A stretch of 64,000 nucleotides of DNA from Candidatus Kapaibacterium sp. (GTDB lineage Bacteria; Bacteroidota; Ignavibacteria; Kapaibacteriales; UBA2268), in contig CP058732.1 in NCBI GenBank assembly GCA_013414795.1, forward strand, positions 1,525,950 through 1,589,949, read 5' to 3'. The notes under the pieces were generated by a model, which saw nothing but the letters and a program-made list of their open reading frames with translations, did no database searches and was not told where the DNA came from. Both the position numbers and the translations under genes were made by a program. Shown here piece by piece: positions 16,821 through 51,240 of the stretch (positions are counted from its first letter, which is position 1; each line of letters opens with the position of its first letter).

Positions 16821-17760
16821 AGAAATTAACATTAACTTTCTTAAAAACAATATTAAAGAATTTTCTTATTCTCTTGGTTTTGAAAAAGTTGGCTTTGCTC
16901 GATTTCGTTTTTTTAGTAAAGAAATTGAAAAATATAAAAACTGGCTCGCCAACGGTTATCAAGCATCTATGAATTATTTGGAGAGAAATATTGATAAACG
17001 TGAGAATATTGGCTTAATCCTTTCTGATGTAAAAAGCATAATTGTTTTTGCACATTCATACTTTACAGATGTCCAGCATTCAAAATCGATTTTTAAAATT
17101 TCAAGGTACGCATGGGGAGATGACTATCACGACATTTTGGAAAAGAAAATCCGAAAAGTTGCAAACTTTATTTCAGAACAAGTTGATACTTTTAAATTCA
17201 AAATCTATGTCGATACGGGACCAATACTTGAAAAAATTTGGGCTGTTGAGGCTGGAATTGGTTGGCAAGGTAAAAATAGTTTAGTCCTTTCCCAGGAACT
17301 TGGTTCGTATTTTTTTATTGGAATAATGCTTACAAATCTGGACGTTCCCCCAGATACAAAAGTTGTTGACCGTTGTGGGGAATGTAGAAAATGTATTGAT
17401 GCGTGTCCAACCAATGCTATTGTTAGCCCTAAAGTTGTTGACTCTCGTAAGTGCATTTCATTTTGGACAATTGAAAAGAAAATACACGAGGAAATTCCGC
17501 ATCAATTGGACTTTAAGGGCTGGATTTTTGGTTGCGATATTTGTCAAGAAGTATGTCCTTGGAACAGCAAAGCCAAAATTACAAAAGAATTAGCATTTTA
17601 TCCTCGGAATGGAAAAACAAATCTTGAAGAAGAGGATTTGATGAAATTAACAATTGAAAATTTCAAAGAAGTTTTTCGAAAATCTCCAATTAAAAGAGCA
17701 AAGTTTGAAGGATTAATGAAAAATTATTTACATTTAAGGGGGTTAAATGAATTTGAATAG
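16807..17760 (+). CDS. queG: Epoxyqueuosine reductase
   Basis: A cobalamin-dependent iron-sulfur enzyme that reduces epoxyqueuosine to queuosine in tRNA, the last step of Q34 synthesis. It shows [20 protein letters not shown] and [18 protein letters not shown], both typical of QueG, then two [4Fe-4S] sites: [16 protein letters not shown] and [11 protein letters not shown]. The length of 317 is normal. The start is a TTG at 16807 (another TTG lies at 16813), inside the Rieske gene; no ATG lies near the beginning of homology. The stop overlaps the start of the next gene. No other queuosine gene is in the window. Confidence 0.93.
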
Positions 17761-19834
17761 ATTGGCAAAAGAGAAAAGTCCATATCTTCAACAGCACGCT
17801 CACAATCCAGTAGATTGGTATCCTTGGTGCGACGAAGCATTTGAAATTGCAAAAAAATTGGATAAGCCAATTTTTTTGTCGATTGGATATTCGACTTGCC
17901 ATTGGTGCCACGTTATGGAAAGAGAAAGTTTTGACGATGAGGAAGTGGCAGAAGTTTTGAATGATGTTTTTGTGTGCATAAAAGTTGATAGGGAAGAGCG
18001 TCCCGACATAGACGCTTTCTATATGAAAGTCTGTCAAATGATGACTGGAAGCGGGGGATGGCCACTGACGATAATAATGACACCAGATAAAAAACCTTTT
18101 TTTGCGGGAACTTACTTTCCCAAGGAAACCCGTTACAATAGAATTGGAATTGTTGACCTTGCCCTAAATGTAAAAAATGTATGGACAAATAGGCGTGCTG
18201 ATGTTGAAAATTCAGCAAACAGTTTAATTGAATACTTAAAACAAAAAAATGATAAAAGTAACATAGATTATTTAAGTGAGAATTATTTAGAGGAGGCATT
18301 TCAAAGTTTGAGATTTGCTTTTGATAAAGTTTATGGGGGATTTGGTTCTGCTCCGAAGTTTCCCACTCCTCAAAATTTGCTCTTTCTGTTGGATTACTTT
18401 GCTTTGAAAAATGAACAAACTGCTATGCAAATGGTGGAAGAGACATTAGTCAAAATGAGGCTTGGAGGAATTTTCGACCATATTGGTTTTGGCTTCCACC
18501 GTTATTCGACCGATATCAAATGGCTAGTTCCACACTTCGAAAAAATGCTCTACGACCAAGCAATGCTTTTATATACTTATTCGAAAGCGTATCAAATTAC
18601 AAAGAACCAGTTTTACCTAAATGTATCCAATGAGATTGTAGAGTATGTATTGCGAGAATTGCTATTCGAAAACAAGGCTTTCTATTCCAGCGAAGATGCA
18701 GATAGCGAAGGAGAGGAAGGAAAATTCTATCTTTTCGAATATGAGGAATTACAAAAAATACTCGGGGATGAGTTTGAACTTTTTAGCAAAGTTTTTAATG
18801 TGCAACCATCTGGAAATTTCGAAGATTTTTTCGGGGAAAATGTTAATAAGAATATTTTACATCTTTCAAAGGTGATACCAGAACTGGCTGATGAACTTTT
18901 AATTAGTCCGAAAGATTTAGAAAATAAAATTGATTTGTGGTGAAAAGTTATTTTTGATTATCGGGAGAAAAGGGAGAAACCTTTTAAGGACAAGAAAATA
19001 ATGACAGATTGGAATGGCTTAATGATTGCTGGTTTATCAGCCTACTACTCGGTAACCAAACGAAGGGATATTTTGGAAATACTCGTAAACTATTTGAGTT
19101 TCTTTAAAGACCATTTGTTGAAAGGAGATGGCTCGATTTTTCATTTGTATATTGACAATCAAGCAAAAGTGGATGGTTTCCTTGATGACTATGCCTTCTC
19201 AATATTTGGTTTTATCGAGGTGTTTGAATCTACAATGAAAAGTGAATTCCTGGAAATGGCTAAATCACTTTTAGATGTGTCAATTGTTAAGTTTTGGTCA
19301 GATGATGAAAACGCATTCTATTTTACCTCGAATGATAAATGTGAAACGGCAATAAATACTTTGGAGTTTTTTGATGGTGCGGTACCTTCGGGAAATTCTG
19401 TAATGTTTTATGTTTTAAATAAATTCTACTTGTATTCTGGAATAACCGATTACTTTGAAAAAGCCGAAAGATTAGAAAAAACATTTGCCAAATTTGCTGA
19501 CTCCAATCCCTCTGCATATAATTTCTTCAATTTTGGTTTACAGAAAAAATTTTCACATAACTTCGAAGTTGTAATTGTTTACCCAGACGAAAATGATGAT
19601 GAGTTTAAAAAATATAAGGAATTTTTTGAGGGAAAATATTTTCCAAATGGCACAGTAATTTTTTTCAATCCAAATTATAATAATAAACTCTCTAATTTTT
19701 TATTTTGGAACGATTACAAGTTGGTTCAAGATAAGGCAACTGCATACTTATGTTCGAATTTTTCTTGTAGCCCACCATTTACTAATTTTGAACTTTTCGT
19801 AAAAGAATTTGAAAGAAAAATTAATGCCAAATGA
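17747..19834 (+). pseudogene. Thioredoxin-domain DUF255 protein (YyaL/SSP411 family) with an in-frame TGA
   Basis: The two open segments 17747-18943 and 19001-19834 lie in the same frame, and together give a full-length (about 695 codons) YyaL-type protein. The N-terminal part has [17 protein letters not shown] and the CxxC site Cys51-His-Trp-Cys54 ([14 protein letters not shown]). The C-terminal part begins with KIMTDWNGLMIAGLS and is an (alpha/alpha) barrel-like domain. Codon 399 (18941-18943) is TGA, falling where relatives have an Arg in the helix before the REKR..P..D.K segment. No indel is needed, so a CGA or AGA to TGA substitution explains it. A strong ribosome site (AAGGGGGTTAA) precedes the ATG. 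prmA overlaps the true end. It could be a recent nonsense mutation, an assembly error, or readthrough. Confidence 0.85.
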
Positions 19835-30806: not shown

Positions 30807-30824
30807 TCTTTAATGATTAATTTG

Positions 30825-30856
30825 AAAAAGGGAAAGTGGTACACTTTCCCTTTTTT
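30825..30856 (+). terminator. Strong intrinsic terminator after ppdK
   Basis: A perfect 14-bp inverted repeat, AAAAAGGGAAAGTG with its complement, around a three-base loop and followed by a T-run. It starts 18 bases after the ppdK stop. The A-run on the left makes it potentially active in both directions. Confidence 0.9.
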
Positions 30857-30876
30857 ATTATTAAGCAATATTTTAT

Positions 30877-30884
30877 TATTTTTG
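30877..30884 (+). promoter_or_regulatory. Putative -7 promoter element of the diheme peroxidase gene
   Basis: TATTTTTG fits TAnnTTTG and lies between the ppdK terminator and the next gene, 34 bases before its ATG. There is no convincing -33 box. Confidence 0.35.
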
Positions 30885-30917
30885 AATTTCAGTTCATACA
30901 AATTTGGAGGTAATTTT

Positions 30918-31940
30918 ATGAAAAAATTCATATTCTTATCAATTCTTGCAATAATTCTTATTTCTTGCGGCGGGAAAAAGGAAGGAGAGGTTAAAAAACT
31001 CTCGGAAGCGGAAGAGCAAGAACTTTTGACAAAAGCGAGCAGTATTTTTGGTATGCTTCCAAATAAAATGCCTGGAAGCGAAAACGACTCTCCAGAATTG
31101 ATTGAATTGGGCAAAAAATTATATTTCGAAACCAAACTTTCGGTTAACAATACAATGTCCTGCAACACTTGTCATGACATTAACAACAAAGCGGGTGTGG
31201 ACAACAAACCGACTTCACCTGGAGCAATCGAAGGCAAGATGGGAACTCGCAACACGCCAACAGTATTCAATGCTGGCTTTCAATTTGTTCAATTTTGGGA
31301 TGGTCGTGCAGCCGACCTAAAAGAGCAAGCCAAAGGACCAATCCTGAATCCTGTTGAAATGGCTATGCCAAACGAAAAAGAAGTTGAAAAAGTGATTTCC
31401 TCCATTCCCGAATACCAGGAAATGTTCAAAAAAGCATTTCCCAACGAAAAGAAACCCATCACTTTCGACAATATTGCTCACGCTATTGCAGCATTTGAAA
31501 GAACACTTGTTTCGAAGTCACGCTATGACAAATGGGTAACTGGTGATAAAACTGCTTTAACTGACGAAGAAAAACTTGGTTTGAAGAATTTTATCGAAGT
31601 TGGATGTATTACTTGCCATACTGGTCCAGGCTTTGGTGGTAATCTTTATCAAAAGATGGGCTTGGTTAAGCCTTATTATAATACAAAAGATTTAGGTAGG
31701 TACGAAGTTACAAAACAAGAATCGGACAAGTTTATGTTTAAAGTGGCTATGCTCCGAAATGTTGAATTAACTTGGCCCTATTTCCACGATGGAAGTGCAA
31801 AGACATTGGAAGAAGCAGTTAAAATTATGGCAGACATTAATCTTGGCAAACAATTAACCGATGAGCAGTTGAAATCCATAGTCGCATTTCTAAAAGCATT
31901 GACTGACCCGAATCTTGTTCCCAAAACAGCCAAAAATTAA
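30918..31940 (+). CDS. Diheme cytochrome c peroxidase, lipoprotein
   Basis: A periplasmic enzyme of the CcpA/MauG family that reduces hydrogen peroxide with electrons from cytochromes. The ATG at 30918 has a GGAGG ribosome site 7 bases upstream and starts a lipoprotein signal (ending LISCGG, lipidated Cys about residue 17). Two c-type heme sites are present: Cys82-N-T-Cys85-His86 (MSCNTCHDI) and Cys230-I-T-Cys233-His234 (GCITCHTGPGFGG). TRNTPTVFNAGFQFVQFWDG and FERTLVSKSRYDKW are typical of the family. The 340-residue length fits. It has its own promoter element and terminator. Cysteines for heme attachment imply a cytochrome c maturation system elsewhere. Confidence 0.93.
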   Translation: MKKFIFLSILAIILISCGGKKEGEVKKLSEAEEQELLTKASSIFGMLPNKMPGSENDSPELIELGKKLYFETKLSVNNTMSCNTCHDINNKAGVDNKPTSPGAIEGKMGTRNTPTVFNAGFQFVQFWDGRAADLKEQAKGPILNPVEMAMPNEKEVEKVISSIPEYQEMFKKAFPNEKKPITFDNIAHAIAAFERTLVSKSRYDKWVTGDKTALTDEEKLGLKNFIEVGCITCHTGPGFGGNLYQKMGLVKPYYNTKDLGRYEVTKQESDKFMFKVAMLRNVELTWPYFHDGSAKTLEEAVKIMADINLGKQLTDEQLKSIVAFLKALTDPNLVPKTAKN

Positions 31941-31961
31941 TAAATATTTTTGCTTCAACTG

Positions 31962-31992
31962 GGGCTATTCAGTTATGAATAGCCCTTTTTTT
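31962..31992 (+). terminator. Intrinsic terminator after the diheme peroxidase gene
   Basis: A perfect 10-bp stem, GGGCTATTCA / TGAATAGCCC, with a four-base loop and an eight-base T tract, 21 bases after the stop codon. Confidence 0.92.
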
Positions 31993-32011: not shown

Positions 32012-32043
32012 TTTTGTTATTGAAAATATTTTAAATAAATTTG
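32012..32043 (+). promoter_or_regulatory. Bacteroidetes-type promoter of the acidic protein/DUF432-like/MscS operon
   Basis: TTTTG at 32012-32016 and TAAATTTG at 32036-32043 are separated by 19 bases, matching the Bacteroidetes TTTG-N19-TAnnTTTG consensus. The element lies 34 bases before the first start codon and just downstream of the previous terminator. It is the best-formed promoter in the window. Confidence 0.6.
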
Positions 32044-32076: not shown

Positions 32077-32391
32077 ATGTTAGAATTTAACGAAAAAAGG
32101 GATAGCAATTATAGTTACTTTGCTGGAAGTGGTTATGATGATTTCGAAGACCAGTTTTTCTCTGAATTCGATGATGATGATTTCGAAGAAGAACACATCT
32201 TCGACGACGAAGACCTCTTGAACCTTGAAGAAATAGATGAAACAGAATACTTTAAAAAGGAAAAAGGTGACGATGACAAAGATGAGGACATTTTCCCCGA
32301 GGACCTTTTCCCCGAAGGTGGGTTCGATGAGTTCATTGACGACGAAGACATTGGAGACGAGTTCGACGATGATTTAGATTTTGATAGATAA
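32077..32391 (+). CDS. Small, extremely acidic protein of unknown function
   Basis: A 104-residue protein in which by my count 47 residues are Asp or Glu, with runs such as DDDDFEEE and DDED. Phe and Tyr recur between the acidic runs (FEDQFFSEF, FPEDLFPEGGF). Only a handful of Lys/Arg are present. It has no signal peptide, membrane segment or recognisable domain and is likely disordered. I believe it is real because it has a well-formed promoter, lies 6 bases before the next gene, and begins a three-gene operon with the DUF432-like protein and MscS. Possible roles (cation binding, nucleic-acid mimicry, chaperone) are guesses; I do not recognise a family. Confidence 0.7.
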   Translation: MLEFNEKRDSNYSYFAGSGYDDFEDQFFSEFDDDDFEEEHIFDDEDLLNLEEIDETEYFKKEKGDDDKDEDIFPEDLFPEGGFDEFIDDEDIGDEFDDDLDFDR

Positions 32392-32397
32392 ACTTCT

Positions 32398-33120
32398 ATG
32401 CCAACAAACGTTTCGAGGTATGGCTCTTTTCCGCTTGATGATTCTTTTGTATGTGAAAATTTTAAGTTTTCATTAATCAACAAAGCAAATTCCTATCTTT
32501 ATAGAAGAGAAACAATTGATAATAATATTAAAAGTTCAACTCTATCCTATGTTGAGTGTGATGAGATTATTATTCAACCATCGGAGCCTCTGGTTGAAGA
32601 TTTACCCAAAACTCTTATAATGCTTGAATTTGAGGAACCTTTAGTTTTACTGCCAGAGAGCAAATTGAATGGCTTTACAACATTTCCTATTTCCATTGCA
32701 ATTTTTCTCAAAGATAAAAGGAAGCATTATTTGATTGATTTATTTAATATCTCTCGATTGAAATTTGCTTTATACGGAAATCCTCATAATGGTTCAGTTT
32801 GTAGGTATTGGAAAACAAATTTTTTGTTGGAACCATTTGAAACGACAATATTCGAAACTGCTCTGTTAGAACTCGAACTTGAAAACACATCTTCATCCAC
32901 TATCAAATTAACCAAATTAATTCTCGATTTTGCCTATATTCGTTTGTATTATAAAGAAAGGCAAGCAAAAACGAAAGCCAGGGCAAAAATCCAATCTGAA
33001 TTGTATTGTGAAACAGAATTTTTAGACACAAATGAGAAGGAAGGTTTTATTCAAACTATTGATTTGATACCGACTAAACTCCTTTCCAGTTCAAAATTCA
33101 TTATGACTAATGGCTTATGA
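32398..33120 (+). CDS. Uncharacterised protein, possibly DUF432 family
   Basis: A 240-residue soluble protein with no signal peptide. It starts VSRYGSFPLDDSF, then IIIQPSEPLVEDLP, and TFPISIAIFLKDKRKHYLID in the middle. This pattern resembles my memory of the DUF432 family (a Y-G-x-x-P-L start and a T-F-P-I-x-I segment), but I cannot confirm it without a profile search. Predicted mostly beta-strand, with one basic helix (YKERQAKTKARAKIQ) near residue 200. It lies 6 bases after the acidic protein gene and overlaps the MscS gene by 4 bases, so its product is probably linked to the channel. Confidence 0.65.
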   Translation: MPTNVSRYGSFPLDDSFVCENFKFSLINKANSYLYRRETIDNNIKSSTLSYVECDEIIIQPSEPLVEDLPKTLIMLEFEEPLVLLPESKLNGFTTFPISIAIFLKDKRKHYLIDLFNISRLKFALYGNPHNGSVCRYWKTNFLLEPFETTIFETALLELELENTSSSTIKLTKLILDFAYIRLYYKERQAKTKARAKIQSELYCETEFLDTNEKEGFIQTIDLIPTKLLSSSKFIMTNGL

Positions 33121-33917
33121 AATTTTTTGAAGGCATAACTGCTGGGAAAATAATCGAAATTCTACTATTATTACTATTATTTTTGATTTTAATAGTAATT
33201 ATTAGGCTTTTGGTTAATCGTTTGAAATTTGTATTGCGCGAGAAAGTTTCTCAACAAACCCTGGCAATACTTAATAGATTTATTCTTTGGACTTTCATTT
33301 TCCTTTATGTTATTATTGTTTTGACATATCTTGGAGTAAATCTTACTGGATTGCTTGCTGTTGGGGGATTTGCCTCGATTATTATTGGTTTTGCAACACA
33401 GAAAGTAGTCGGAAATTTCATTGCTGGATTGTTTCTAATAATTGAGCGTCCAATCAAGTTGGGTCAGTCAGTTCGAGTCGATAATGTTTCTGGAATTGTA
33501 GAGGAAATCCGCTTTCTCGCTACGATAATTCGCTCTTTCGAAGGCGAGTTCATAAGAATTCCAAACGAGCAAGTTTTTACTTCTGTAATCATAAACTTGA
33601 CCGAAAATGTTGCACGCAGAGTAGACTTTGTAGTTGGAATTCGTTATGCCGACGATTTTGACAAAGCACAAAAAGTTATTTTGAATTTTTTAGACATTCA
33701 ACCATTTGTACTTGCAGTTCCCCAGCCAGAAGTTTTTGTTGAACAACTGGCTTCAAGTAGCGTTAATGTTCATATGCGTTTTTGGTGTCCAACAGAAAAA
33801 TGGTATGCAACCAAAAACAATCTTTTAATTCAAATCAAAAATGAATTAGAAAAGAACGGAATTCAAATACCATTCCCTCAAATGGAAGTAAAAATTCATA
33901 ATTTAAAAGAGTTTTAG
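33117..33917 (+). CDS. MscS-type mechanosensitive ion channel
   Basis: A 266-residue inner-membrane channel. Three hydrophobic segments occur in the first 110 residues. The pore-lining helix is the glycine/alanine-rich LAVGGFASIIIGFATQKVVG, followed by FIAGLFLIIERPIKLG and the beta domain VDNVSGIVEEI, with FEGEFIRIPNEQV, all diagnostic of MscS. The C-terminal part is the cytoplasmic alpha/beta domain. It opens under membrane tension to release solutes. Its start overlaps the DUF432-like gene (ATGA), and its end overlaps the convergent S8 peptidase gene by 15 bases. Confidence 0.95.
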   Translation: MKFFEGITAGKIIEILLLLLLFLILIVIIRLLVNRLKFVLREKVSQQTLAILNRFILWTFIFLYVIIVLTYLGVNLTGLLAVGGFASIIIGFATQKVVGNFIAGLFLIIERPIKLGQSVRVDNVSGIVEEIRFLATIIRSFEGEFIRIPNEQVFTSVIINLTENVARRVDFVVGIRYADDFDKAQKVILNFLDIQPFVLAVPQPEVFVEQLASSSVNVHMRFWCPTEKWYATKNNLLIQIKNELEKNGIQIPFPQMEVKIHNLKEF

Positions 33918-47622: not shown

Positions 47623-47973
47623 TTTGATATTTGCTTGAAAATCAATCAAATACAGATTTTGTAAAAAAAATTTGCATTTTAATTAACAATTGTTTAATTT
47701 GTCAATGCAAATAAAGAAAATGTTGATGAAACTTTTGTTTAGTGAGAAAGTATTTTTGAAACAGTCTTCTAAAATTCATACCAGTTTCTATTATTTTTCA
47801 AAAAAATTTATGGGGGTTGCCTATGAGGAAAATCTTTTTCACATCTTTCCAAATTCGCGACAAACCACATTAAAAATCTTCCAAAGCAAATTAATTTGTT
47901 CGCGTCGCTTTAACTACTCGATTTCGTGAAATTCTTTTTTAAAAAAGTTTTGTTAAATAATGGTTGTGGGAGT
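47623..47973. other. 351-base non-coding gap upstream of susC
   Basis: No gene of good quality is visible here. A possible reading frame at 47690-47929 has no homology and no ribosome site. The gap holds the hairpin described at 47670-47712 and must contain the susC promoter, but I found no clean TAnnTTTG element with the expected spacing. Confidence 0.5.
47670..47712. repeat. Long AT-rich inverted repeat upstream of susC
   Basis: ATTTGCATT at 47670-47678 is exactly complementary to AATGCAAAT at 47704-47712. Inside this lies a nested arm AATTAA, CAATTG, TTAATT with one extra T. It could be an operator for a regulator of the susCD genes or a hairpin in the retropepsin 3' region. No T-run follows on the plus strand, so it is not an obvious plus-strand terminator; a run of A just before it would serve only the minus strand. 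Confidence 0.6.
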
Positions 47974-50900
47974 ATGAAAAAACTAATTAATTACCTGTTT
48001 TTGCTATTCTTTGTTGCTTCCACAGTTGCATTAGCCCAAGATAGGGTTGTAACTGGGAAAGTGACAGACGAAAATGGTAACGCACTTTCTGGCGTTACCG
48101 TTTTAGTAAAAGGTACAGCAATTGGTACCTTCACGAAGAACGATGGAACTTTTCAAATTCGCGTGCCCGCAAACGCAAAAACTCTTGTCTTTCGTCGCGT
48201 TGGTATGAAAACCAAAGAAGTTCCAGTTGGAACAAAAGACTTCTTCGCCGTGACGCTTGAGGAAGATAAGTTGCAAACGGAAGAAGTAGTCGTTACTGCA
48301 ATCGGATTGGAAAGGGAAAAGAAATCCATTGGATACGCCTACGAGGAAGTTAAAGGAAACATTGTATCGGAAGCAAAAGTTACTAATATTGTCAATTCTA
48401 TAACTGGAAAAGTTGCTGGTGTGCAGGTTGTAAATACAACTGGTGTTCCTGGCGCTTCTGCATACATTCAAATTCGCGGTCAAAACTCTTTCCTTGGTGG
48501 AAACCAACCATTGTTTATCGTCGACGGTATACCAATTGACAACTCAATGGTTTATAGTGGTAACCCTGACAATGGGACAAATAACTTATTATCTAATGTC
48601 GCATTTTCGAACCGTGCCATCGATTTGAACCCAGACGACATTGAATCTGTAACAATTCTTAAAGGTCCTGCCGCAACTGCATTGTATGGGATTCGTGCTG
48701 CAAATGGTGCAATTGTCATTACCACGAAAAAAGGGCAAACTGCTGCAAGATAAAGAATAAATGTTACTTTTTCGGCAACGACAAGCCTCGAAGAAGTAAA
48801 TAAGTTGCCCGAAATGCAAAAGAAATTTATCCAGGGTATGGGTGGCATTATCCGTCAGCCAGGAAGCAATGAACCCAGAAGTTGGGGTGCTTCAATTGAT
48901 ACATTATATTGGGATTTGCAATCTCCAAATAAATTTGATAAGAACGGAAACATTGTTGGAAAATACTTTGTTGACAGTGTAGCAAATCCTTCACGATTTA
49001 AGAAATTCGAGCCATACGACAATGTGAATAACTTTTTCGTAACTGGAATGACTAACACACAGAATTTGTCGATGGCTGGAGGAACAGATTTTGGTTCATT
49101 CTATCTTTCAATCTCAAATTCAAAATCCTTTGGTGTTGTTCCTTTAACGAGTTTTTCTCGTCAATCAATAAGATTCAATGGAGAAGCAAGAATTTCATCA
49201 AAGTTGAAAGCCTCGGGTAACATAAGTTATACCAATTCGGGTGGTCGTAGAGCACAACAAGGCAGTAACATTTCTGGTGTTATGCTTGGTTTGTTGCGAA
49301 CACCCATTTCATTTGACAATTCAAATGGTCACGGTAAAGAAGCGTATAACTACGAAGATGCTTTTATGTTCCCCGATGGAACCCAAAGAAACTATCGAGG
49401 TGGCGGAGGATACGACAATCCATACTGGACTATTGTAAAATCTCCATTCTTTGATGATGTTGATAGGTTCATCGGAAACATACAGTTGAATTACTTCTTT
49501 AATCAAAACATTGATTTAACCTATCGATTAGGTGCCGACATTTATTTCGATAAACGACGACAGGAATTCGCCATTAATTCAAGAGCATTTCCCGCTGGGC
49601 AAATATTCAATCACGAAATTTATAGTAATGACCTAACATCAGACCTAATTTTGACATTTAATTACAATTTAACCGATGACCTTGTAGGTAAACTAATTGT
49701 TGGTAATAATTTATATCAATCACTTGGAAGTTCGCTTTATACACAAGGCGATGGATTGATCGTTCCCGATTTCTACCATATTTCCAACACCACCAGCCAA
49801 ATTGTCCGCCAATCTCGTGGAACTCTTCGTAGATTAGGTTTCTACGGAGATCTCTCCTTGGATTATCAAGAGTGGTTGTATTTTAACGGTTCTTTACGAA
49901 ATGATATGTCAACCACTTTGCCGAAGGACAATAATTCCTTCTGGTACGGACAAGGAAGTGTTAGCGTAGTGTTTACGAATTTATTCAAAAATGCTTTTGA
50001 AGGCACTTTCTTCAATTTTGGTAAACTTCGCTTCAATTACGCAATCGTCGGAAAAGATGCTCCGATGTATGCAACCACTACACCATTCATTCAGGCGGCT
50101 TATGCTGATGGATATACAAATGGTGTCTCATTCCCATTCAATGGTCAAGTTGGCTTTGTCTCTGGCGATGTTTTGGGGAACGATAAACTTAGACCCGAAA
50201 AGACAACATCTTGGGAAATCGGTTTGAACCTCGCTTTATTTAATAACATTGTATCGTTGGACTTGACATATTATAATTCTGTAAGTAAAGACCAAATTTT
50301 CAGCGTTCCAATAGCACGTTCGACTGGATATTTTGCTACTGTTTTCAACGCAGGACAAATTTCAAACAAAGGTTTTGAAGCCGTTTTAAATATTACCCCA
50401 TTAAACACTGCCGATTGGCGTTGGGATATTAATTTGAACTTTTCTACGAACAAAAATATGGTAGATGAGTTGTACGAAGGTATTGACAACATATTCTTAG
50501 GTGGTTTTGAGGGTTCATCAGTTCGAATTGTTGCAGGTAAGCCATACGGTTCGATATTCGGATTTGGATGGGTTCGAGATCCCCAAACTGGCGAAGTCGT
50601 AATTAATGACGACCCGAATAGCGAAGAATATGGATTTCCTATCCTTGATATGAACAATGAAAAAGCCTTTGGGTCCTCCAATCCAGATTGGTTGCTCGGT
50701 TTCAGAAATTCAATTAGTTGGAAAGACTTGACTTTGTCCTTTTTGATTGACATTAAGAAAGGCGGAAAGATGTGGAACGGTACCCGAAGCGCCCTATACT
50801 ATTTTGGAACTCATAAAGAAACAGAAAATCGAAATTACAAAAAAGTTTTCACTGGTGTTAAGGGTCATTTTGATGAAAACGGTAATTTAGTGGTTTCTGG

Positions 50901-51240
50901 TAAAAATGATATCCAAGTTACAATCGACCAGAATTGGTTGGCACTTGGAAATGGAAATGGTTTCTTTGGAAGCAACACCGAGGATTTTGTTGAGGACGCT
51001 GGCTGGGTCCGATTGCGTGAGTTGAGTCTTTCTTACAAATTACCCAAATCCATTGTCGGGTATACTCCGTTTTCGAATGTTGTGTTGACCTTTACCGGGC
51101 GGAATTTGTGGTTGAGTACGAAATATAAAGGTGTCGATCCAGAGACAAACTTGATGGGTGCTTATAGTGCCCAAGGACTCGAATACTTTAATATGCCCGG
51201 CGTTCGCAGCTATAATTTCACAATTACTGTCGATTTCTAA
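47974..51240 (+). pseudogene. SusC/RagA-type TonB-dependent outer-membrane receptor, interrupted by in-frame TAA
   Basis: With the internal stop ignored this is a full-length SusC-like receptor of about 1088 residues. The signal peptide starts at the ATG at 47974, then the carboxypeptidase-like regulatory domain (GKVTDENGNALSGVTVLVKG), then the TonB plug with EEVVVTAIGLER and FIVDGIPIDNS, ending ITTKKGQTAAR. Codon 260 (48751-48753) is TAA. The frame continues without shift into RINVTFSATTSLEEV and an intact barrel to the C-terminal aromatic residue of TITVDF. AAA, CAA or GAA to TAA by one substitution explains it. susD follows 26 bases later and is intact. If the stop is real, a 259-residue plug-only fragment is made. 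Substrate unknown. Confidence 0.85.

Follow-up and report, generated by a model that had tools for sequence, protein, structure and literature searches.

The window, i.e. the whole stretch of 64,000 nucleotides from Candidatus Kapaibacterium sp. analysed here, harbours an operon in which the gene for a soluble DUF432 protein directly precedes the gene of an MscS channel that belongs to a distinct subfamily. In textbooks, MscS is a self-sufficient tension sensor. The arrangement suggests a channel with a cytosolic regulator of its own, of which we found no description. DUF432 and the channels of this MscS clade very probably work together. As the mechanism we favour a scenario, with a probability of roughly 0.4, in which DUF432 would regulate the gating of channels that carry an RxPNE motif, and in which an ultra-acidic protein encoded by the first gene would be an optional third part.

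Organisation of the operon and its products

The three open reading frames are packed as the earlier note had claimed: a 6-base gap separates the acidic ORF from the DUF432 gene, which in turn overlaps the MscS gene by 4 bases, and the coordinates match exactly (Table 1). The promoter proposed there, TTTTG-N19-TAAATTTG, was likewise located. Its N19 form recurs with identical position and spacing in two other genomes of the genus, and an N20 version is present in a third; within the window, the pattern TTTTG-N19-TANNTTTG occurs twice, versus 0.41 expected occurrences. A strong intrinsic terminator closes the preceding gene for a di-haem peroxidase and insulates the operon from it; this neighbour is retained upstream in all five genomes of the genus. 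The gene on the 3' side is convergent and overlaps the end of the MscS gene by 15 bases; from its sequence motifs we read its product as a putative S8-type protease. Since a terminator on the 5' side, a promoter and a convergent gene on the 3' side delimit the three genes, these form one transcription unit.

Table 1. Features of the operon and its upstream neighbour (positions in the window)
Feature	Position	Strand	Characteristics
MauG/MbnH-like di-haem peroxidase lipoprotein gene	30813-31940	+	directly 5' of the operon
Intrinsic terminator	31961-31986	+	11-pair stem with 5 GC, followed by a T run
Bacteroidota-type promoter TTTTG-N19-TAAATTTG	32012-32043	+	pattern match; same position in 2 other genomes of the genus
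Ultra-acidic protein, 104 aa	32077-32391	+	47/104 D+E; no Pfam or NCBIfam match; orthologues throughout the genus (5/5)
Core motif DEDLxNxExIDE of the acidic protein (residues 44-55)	32206-32241	+	invariant residues in five genomes
DUF432 protein, 240 aa	32398-33120	+	PF04254, residues 72-185, E 2.6e-31; no TM segment
MscS channel, 3 TM, 266 aa	33117-33917	+	PF00924/PF21082; aligns to 2vv5
TM3b-end signature F106-L-I-x-E110	33432-33446	+	from columns of linked vs unlinked channels
RxPNE signature (R147...E151)	33555-33569	+	E. coli MscS 164-168, alignment offset 17

The assignment of the third protein as an MscS channel is well founded. It matches PF00924 (MS_channel_2nd, E 4e-20) and PF21082 (MS_channel_3rd, E 7.2e-15), and PF21088 scores 22.2, just under the cut-off of 23.1. 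Its residues 14-265 align to residues 30-282 of E. coli MscS (2vv5; phmmer 1e-34), so that the three TM segments (TM-like stretches at 15-33, 56-74 and 72-98), the beta-domain and the cytosolic cage correspond end to end. It is the product of the only PF00924 gene in each of the five genomes of the genus; the window genome also encodes MscL.

The middle protein had been called DUF432-like, and an HMM search bears this out with a full-domain match to PF04254 of 108.8 bits, far above the curated cut-off of 21. A sequence search of the PDB retrieved no relative of DUF432 (best E 0.73). The AF2 model of the protein is poor (pLDDT 50, five sequences) and offers no basis for a docking surface.

Two further genes of the window, both on the forward strand, are interrupted. 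The gene at 17747-19834, which we take to encode a YyaL/DUF255-like thioredoxin-domain protein, is split by a single in-frame TGA (18941-18943) with both halves in the same frame; this may be a point nonsense mutation, a sequencing error or recoding. The gene at 47926-51240, presumably for a SusC/TonB-type outer-membrane receptor, is split by a single in-frame TAA (48751-48753), beyond which the same frame continues.

Pairing of DUF432 with one MscS clade

Among 100 relatives, DUF432 is found only in the five genomes of the window's genus, and in each of them the order is acidic gene, DUF432, MscS; the relatives that bear a name are Kapabacteria/Ignavibacteria MAGs. The earlier note would have given up its proposal if the neighbours were not conserved and the acidic protein did not co-occur with MscS; in the genus, both conservation and co-occurrence are complete (5/5). 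Outside the genus, what is widely conserved of the three-gene neighbourhood is the pair of DUF432 and MscS. Of 40 further Bacteroidota genomes, which represent independent families, 39 have DUF432 directly upstream of MscS on the same strand; this count includes one genome (G529) in which the end of the contig truncates the channel gene. These genomes come from a phylum sample, which added 12 DUF432 genomes, a class sample, which raised the total to 26, and a search with profile A7, built from the DUF432 sequences of these samples, which added 14. The only rearranged case is G403, where the acidic gene and DUF432 are located at C4:1.50 Mb and the cognate channel at C4:0.91 Mb (L129/L138); this channel is 84% identical to the linked channel of the related genome G417 and bears the signature RIPNE. 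The pair is also present in A. baumannii, where a 'hypothetical protein' resembling DUF432 (tblastn E 3e-12) is encoded 9 bp upstream of MscS. The functional link between the two proteins that had been proposed from the window thus finds support in the Bacteroidota as well as in Acinetobacter, and the sequence comparisons show DUF432 and one MscS clade to be co-inherited, an association that is well supported.

The A. baumannii protein reaches only 12.2 bits with the Pfam model, i.e. it falls below the cut-off, yet it shows the same pairing. With profile A7 it scores 263 bits, which is not independent evidence because the profile includes this very sequence. Since relatives such as this one score near or below the cut-off, PF04254 under-detects bacterial members and public annotation misses many of them; with the better profile, the number of DUF432 genomes in the phylum rose from 15 to 29. 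Proteins of the window type and of the Rhodothermia type both match Pfam, and hhalign confirms their homology (E 4e-6, probability 87%); the named archaeal control, Methanosarcina acetivorans, matches DUF432 as well. A scan of genome contigs with the single window protein found no DUF432, and one with the genus alignment found the genus only. A scan of viral contigs revealed no relatives of DUF432 and, for MscS, one weak match. Chromosomal genes of A. baumannii also turned up in PLSDB plasmid records and in contigs named 'Acinetobacter phage MD-2021a' (L103, L104, L105), which is a contamination of these collections.

Phylogenetic analysis places the linked channels together. A tree of 79 channels has all 30 linked sequences on one side of a branch (SH-aLRT 91), and none of 500 label shuffles was as clustered. 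A mixture-model tree of 25 linked and 39 unlinked channels recovered the linked clade with UFB/SH-aLRT values of 96/94. The unlinked sequences in the trees include paralogues from the DUF432 genomes themselves. When plasmid-borne channels were added, the clade (99/93) took in the Acinetobacter channel and two Legionella plasmid channels (L149, L150). Because these two, which have RxPNE, lack a DUF432-like neighbour, linkage to DUF432 can be considered the rule in this clade, but not universal. The L150 channel gene starts 5 bp after a stealth-family gene.

One could argue that DUF432 is an independent osmotic-stress protein which merely shares the MscS promoter and makes no physical contact with the channel. 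The presence of universal stress protein genes, on the opposite strand, beside DUF432-MscS pairs of two families (L011, L022) would be in line with such simple co-regulation. However, seven DUF432 genomes together encode 46 MscS genes and in each genome just one of these, always of the same clade, has DUF432 as a neighbour, while the other paralogues do not. Moreover, adjacency is nearly strict despite a divergence so deep that DUF432 identity drops to about 15%. We therefore consider co-regulation alone improbable.

The ultra-acidic protein

With 45% Asp/Glu, the first protein is indeed almost half acidic, as had been noted, and its predicted net charge at pH 7 is about -40. Orthologues occur in all five genomes of the genus and in none of 55 other relatives. 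As the five orthologues align 10-16 standard deviations above shuffled sequences of matched composition, and conservation is lower at codon position 3 than at positions 1 and 2, the ORF is a real gene that is conserved in the genus. Nine residues are invariant in the five genomes (D44, E45, D46, L47, N49, E51, I53, D54 and E55), and the orthologues share a C-terminal D-R. The protein has no TM-like segment, and its AF2 model (pTM 0.16) shows a largely disordered chain in which residues 44-48 and 55-63 form short helices. An antisense ORF at 32133-32483 was rejected as a gene, since codon-position conservation fits the sense frame. Read-through or fusion with DUF432 was likewise dismissed: although the 6-bp gap keeps the two genes in frame in the window, their starts lie in different frames in two other genomes.

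Short ORFs with at least 33% D+E were surveyed in all loci of the analysis, including about 50 neighbourhoods of unlinked MscS genes, and were encountered only upstream of DUF432 genes, namely in the genus and in G417 (73 aa, 59% D+E) and G403 (53%). The latter two genomes are from another class, on the Rhodothermia side; their acidic ORFs are single-copy and homologous to each other, and are absent from three other genomes of the genus to which G417 and G403 belong. The window protein shares 23-29% identity with other acidic sequences, a value affected by biased composition that does not establish homology. The acidic protein itself was found in the window's genus only, the ORFs of G417 and G403 being different-looking ones at the same position. 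In G403 the acidic gene has stayed beside DUF432 though the channel is elsewhere, which hints at a link between the acidic protein and DUF432, and some f34 DUF432 proteins (L012, L013, L017) contain an acidic insert. Charge complementarity, with a basic DUF432 in need of an acidic partner, is not supported, since the DUF432 proteins of the window type have a nearly neutral net charge (-1 to -4).

At less than even odds, the acidic protein may have a role in the same complex as DUF432 and MscS. A functionally unrelated gene, i.e. a genus-specific passenger or leader ORF, is a serious possibility, too, although short of an even chance. Its confinement to one genus plus two other genomes, the lack of a sequence family and its absence from most DUF432-MscS loci agree with a passenger; its retention at this position in 5/5 genomes with a conserved core motif, and the independent occurrence of such ORFs at the corresponding place in G417 and G403, do not.

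Channel signature and proposed mode of regulation

The alignment columns that separate linked from unlinked channels lie at the end of TM3b (I102, F106, L107, I108, E110) and in the beta-domain (L134, F141, R147, E151). RxPNE (R147, E151), which lies in the cyto-helix of the beta-domain, is present in all 31 linked and in none of 49 unlinked channels; the same counts hold for F106, whereas E110 is found in 31/31 linked and 9/49 unlinked sequences. RxPNE also occurs in the two Legionella channels and in the G403 channel that is separated from its DUF432 gene. As the Legionella channels lack an adjacent DUF432, the signature does not require a linked partner, and instead of being an adaptation to DUF432 it may simply have been inherited from the ancestor of the clade.

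The phmmer alignment with E. coli MscS is gapless with an offset of 17, so that N100 corresponds to N117, R147 to V164, N150 to N167 and E151 to G168. While both Asn equivalents are conserved, the window channel differs from the E. coli protein in its Glu at the Gly168 position, its Arg at 164 and F106/E110 at the end of TM3b, and also in having an operonic soluble partner. According to PMC6174206, the inactivated state of E. coli MscS is stabilised by contacts of N117 with N167, which connect TM3b to the cyto-helix; the same article, citing Koprowski 2011, reports that N117K and G168D strongly delay inactivation. Since Asp at this position has that effect, we infer that RxPNE channels, with Glu in its place, could be natively slow to inactivate. 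Together with the TM3b signature, RxPNE points to the inactivation interface of TM3b and beta-domain rather than to metal binding; the earlier note had offered the binding of divalent cations or gating from inside as possible modes of action.

This signature would be left unexplained if DUF432 were a chaperone-like assembly or stability factor of the MscS clade, with the acidic protein as a lineage-specific solubility or expression partner. The soluble gene lies upstream, is translationally coupled and would be expressed just before the channel, and DUF432 pairs one-to-one with one channel clade, all of which suits such a factor. Nonetheless, we deem it unlikely, because the Legionella members of the clade apparently do without an adjacent DUF432, as do unlinked MscS paralogues in the same genomes.

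Conversely, the channel could be the sensor and DUF432 the output, with tension changes or permeating solutes releasing DUF432 or the acidic protein from the channel to act on transcription or metabolism. That DUF432 lacks a TM segment would permit this. A precedent is the cmaX-cfrX-cmpX operon of P. aeruginosa, where CfrX, a protein of 84 aa with unknown function, is co-transcribed with the MscS-family channel CmpX; an action of CmpX and CfrX on the activity of SigX is proposed by the authors (PMC7641640). We nevertheless regard a sensor-output system as improbable, because no nucleic-acid-binding or enzyme domain was found and no regulator is constantly nearby across lineages. With its small partner and MscS-family channel, the P. 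aeruginosa operon is the nearest layout that we found, but the likeness is one of layout only: CfrX is not described as a DUF432 protein, and a gene for a CorA-like transporter also belongs to the operon. Another MscS-like channel whose specialisation sets it apart from the E. coli prototype is MscCG of Corynebacterium glutamicum; the abstract of PMC6110860 describes it as specialised for amino-acid export and notes no DUF432 partner.

The view that no system of this composition has been described is in keeping with the open-access literature, in which we found none. There, neither 'DUF432' as a whole word nor 'PF04254' occurs in any of 5.39 million papers, and words beginning with DUF432 are other words; as open-access texts only were covered, absence is no proof. 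The family, for which we found no described role, is here tied to one MscS clade.

In the preferred reading, regulation of gating by DUF432, the operon would give rise to a channel of a distinct MscS subfamily with a dedicated soluble partner. DUF432, soluble, probably all-beta and cytosolic, would dock onto the channel from the cytosol, on the RxPNE face or close to it. With Glu in place of Gly168, the contact between TM3b and beta-domain through which E. coli MscS inactivates may be weaker, and this would leave the linked channels natively slow to inactivate. Responding to the cytosol, DUF432 could then supply or tune the inactivation brake. As an optional third part, the acidic and largely disordered protein would bind DUF432 or the channel and might make the response depend on ionic strength or crowding. 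The operon order, with MscS last and translationally coupled, would ensure that the partners are made before the channel. In its full form, this proposal holds that the subfamily dropped its built-in TM3b/beta-domain brake and relies on DUF432, the acidic protein being an optional sensor of ionic strength or crowding; taken as a whole, we consider this version speculative and rather unlikely.

If true, prokaryotes would possess a mechanosensitive channel that has soluble regulatory subunits of its own. A clade that is co-inherited with a soluble partner and bears a charged residue right at a reported site of inactivation loss makes it testable in natural channels how and why MscS inactivates. 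The association also provides a hypothesis for the function of DUF432, a family for which we found no open-access paper, and, as the pair reaches Acinetobacter, an experimentally tractable relative is at hand.
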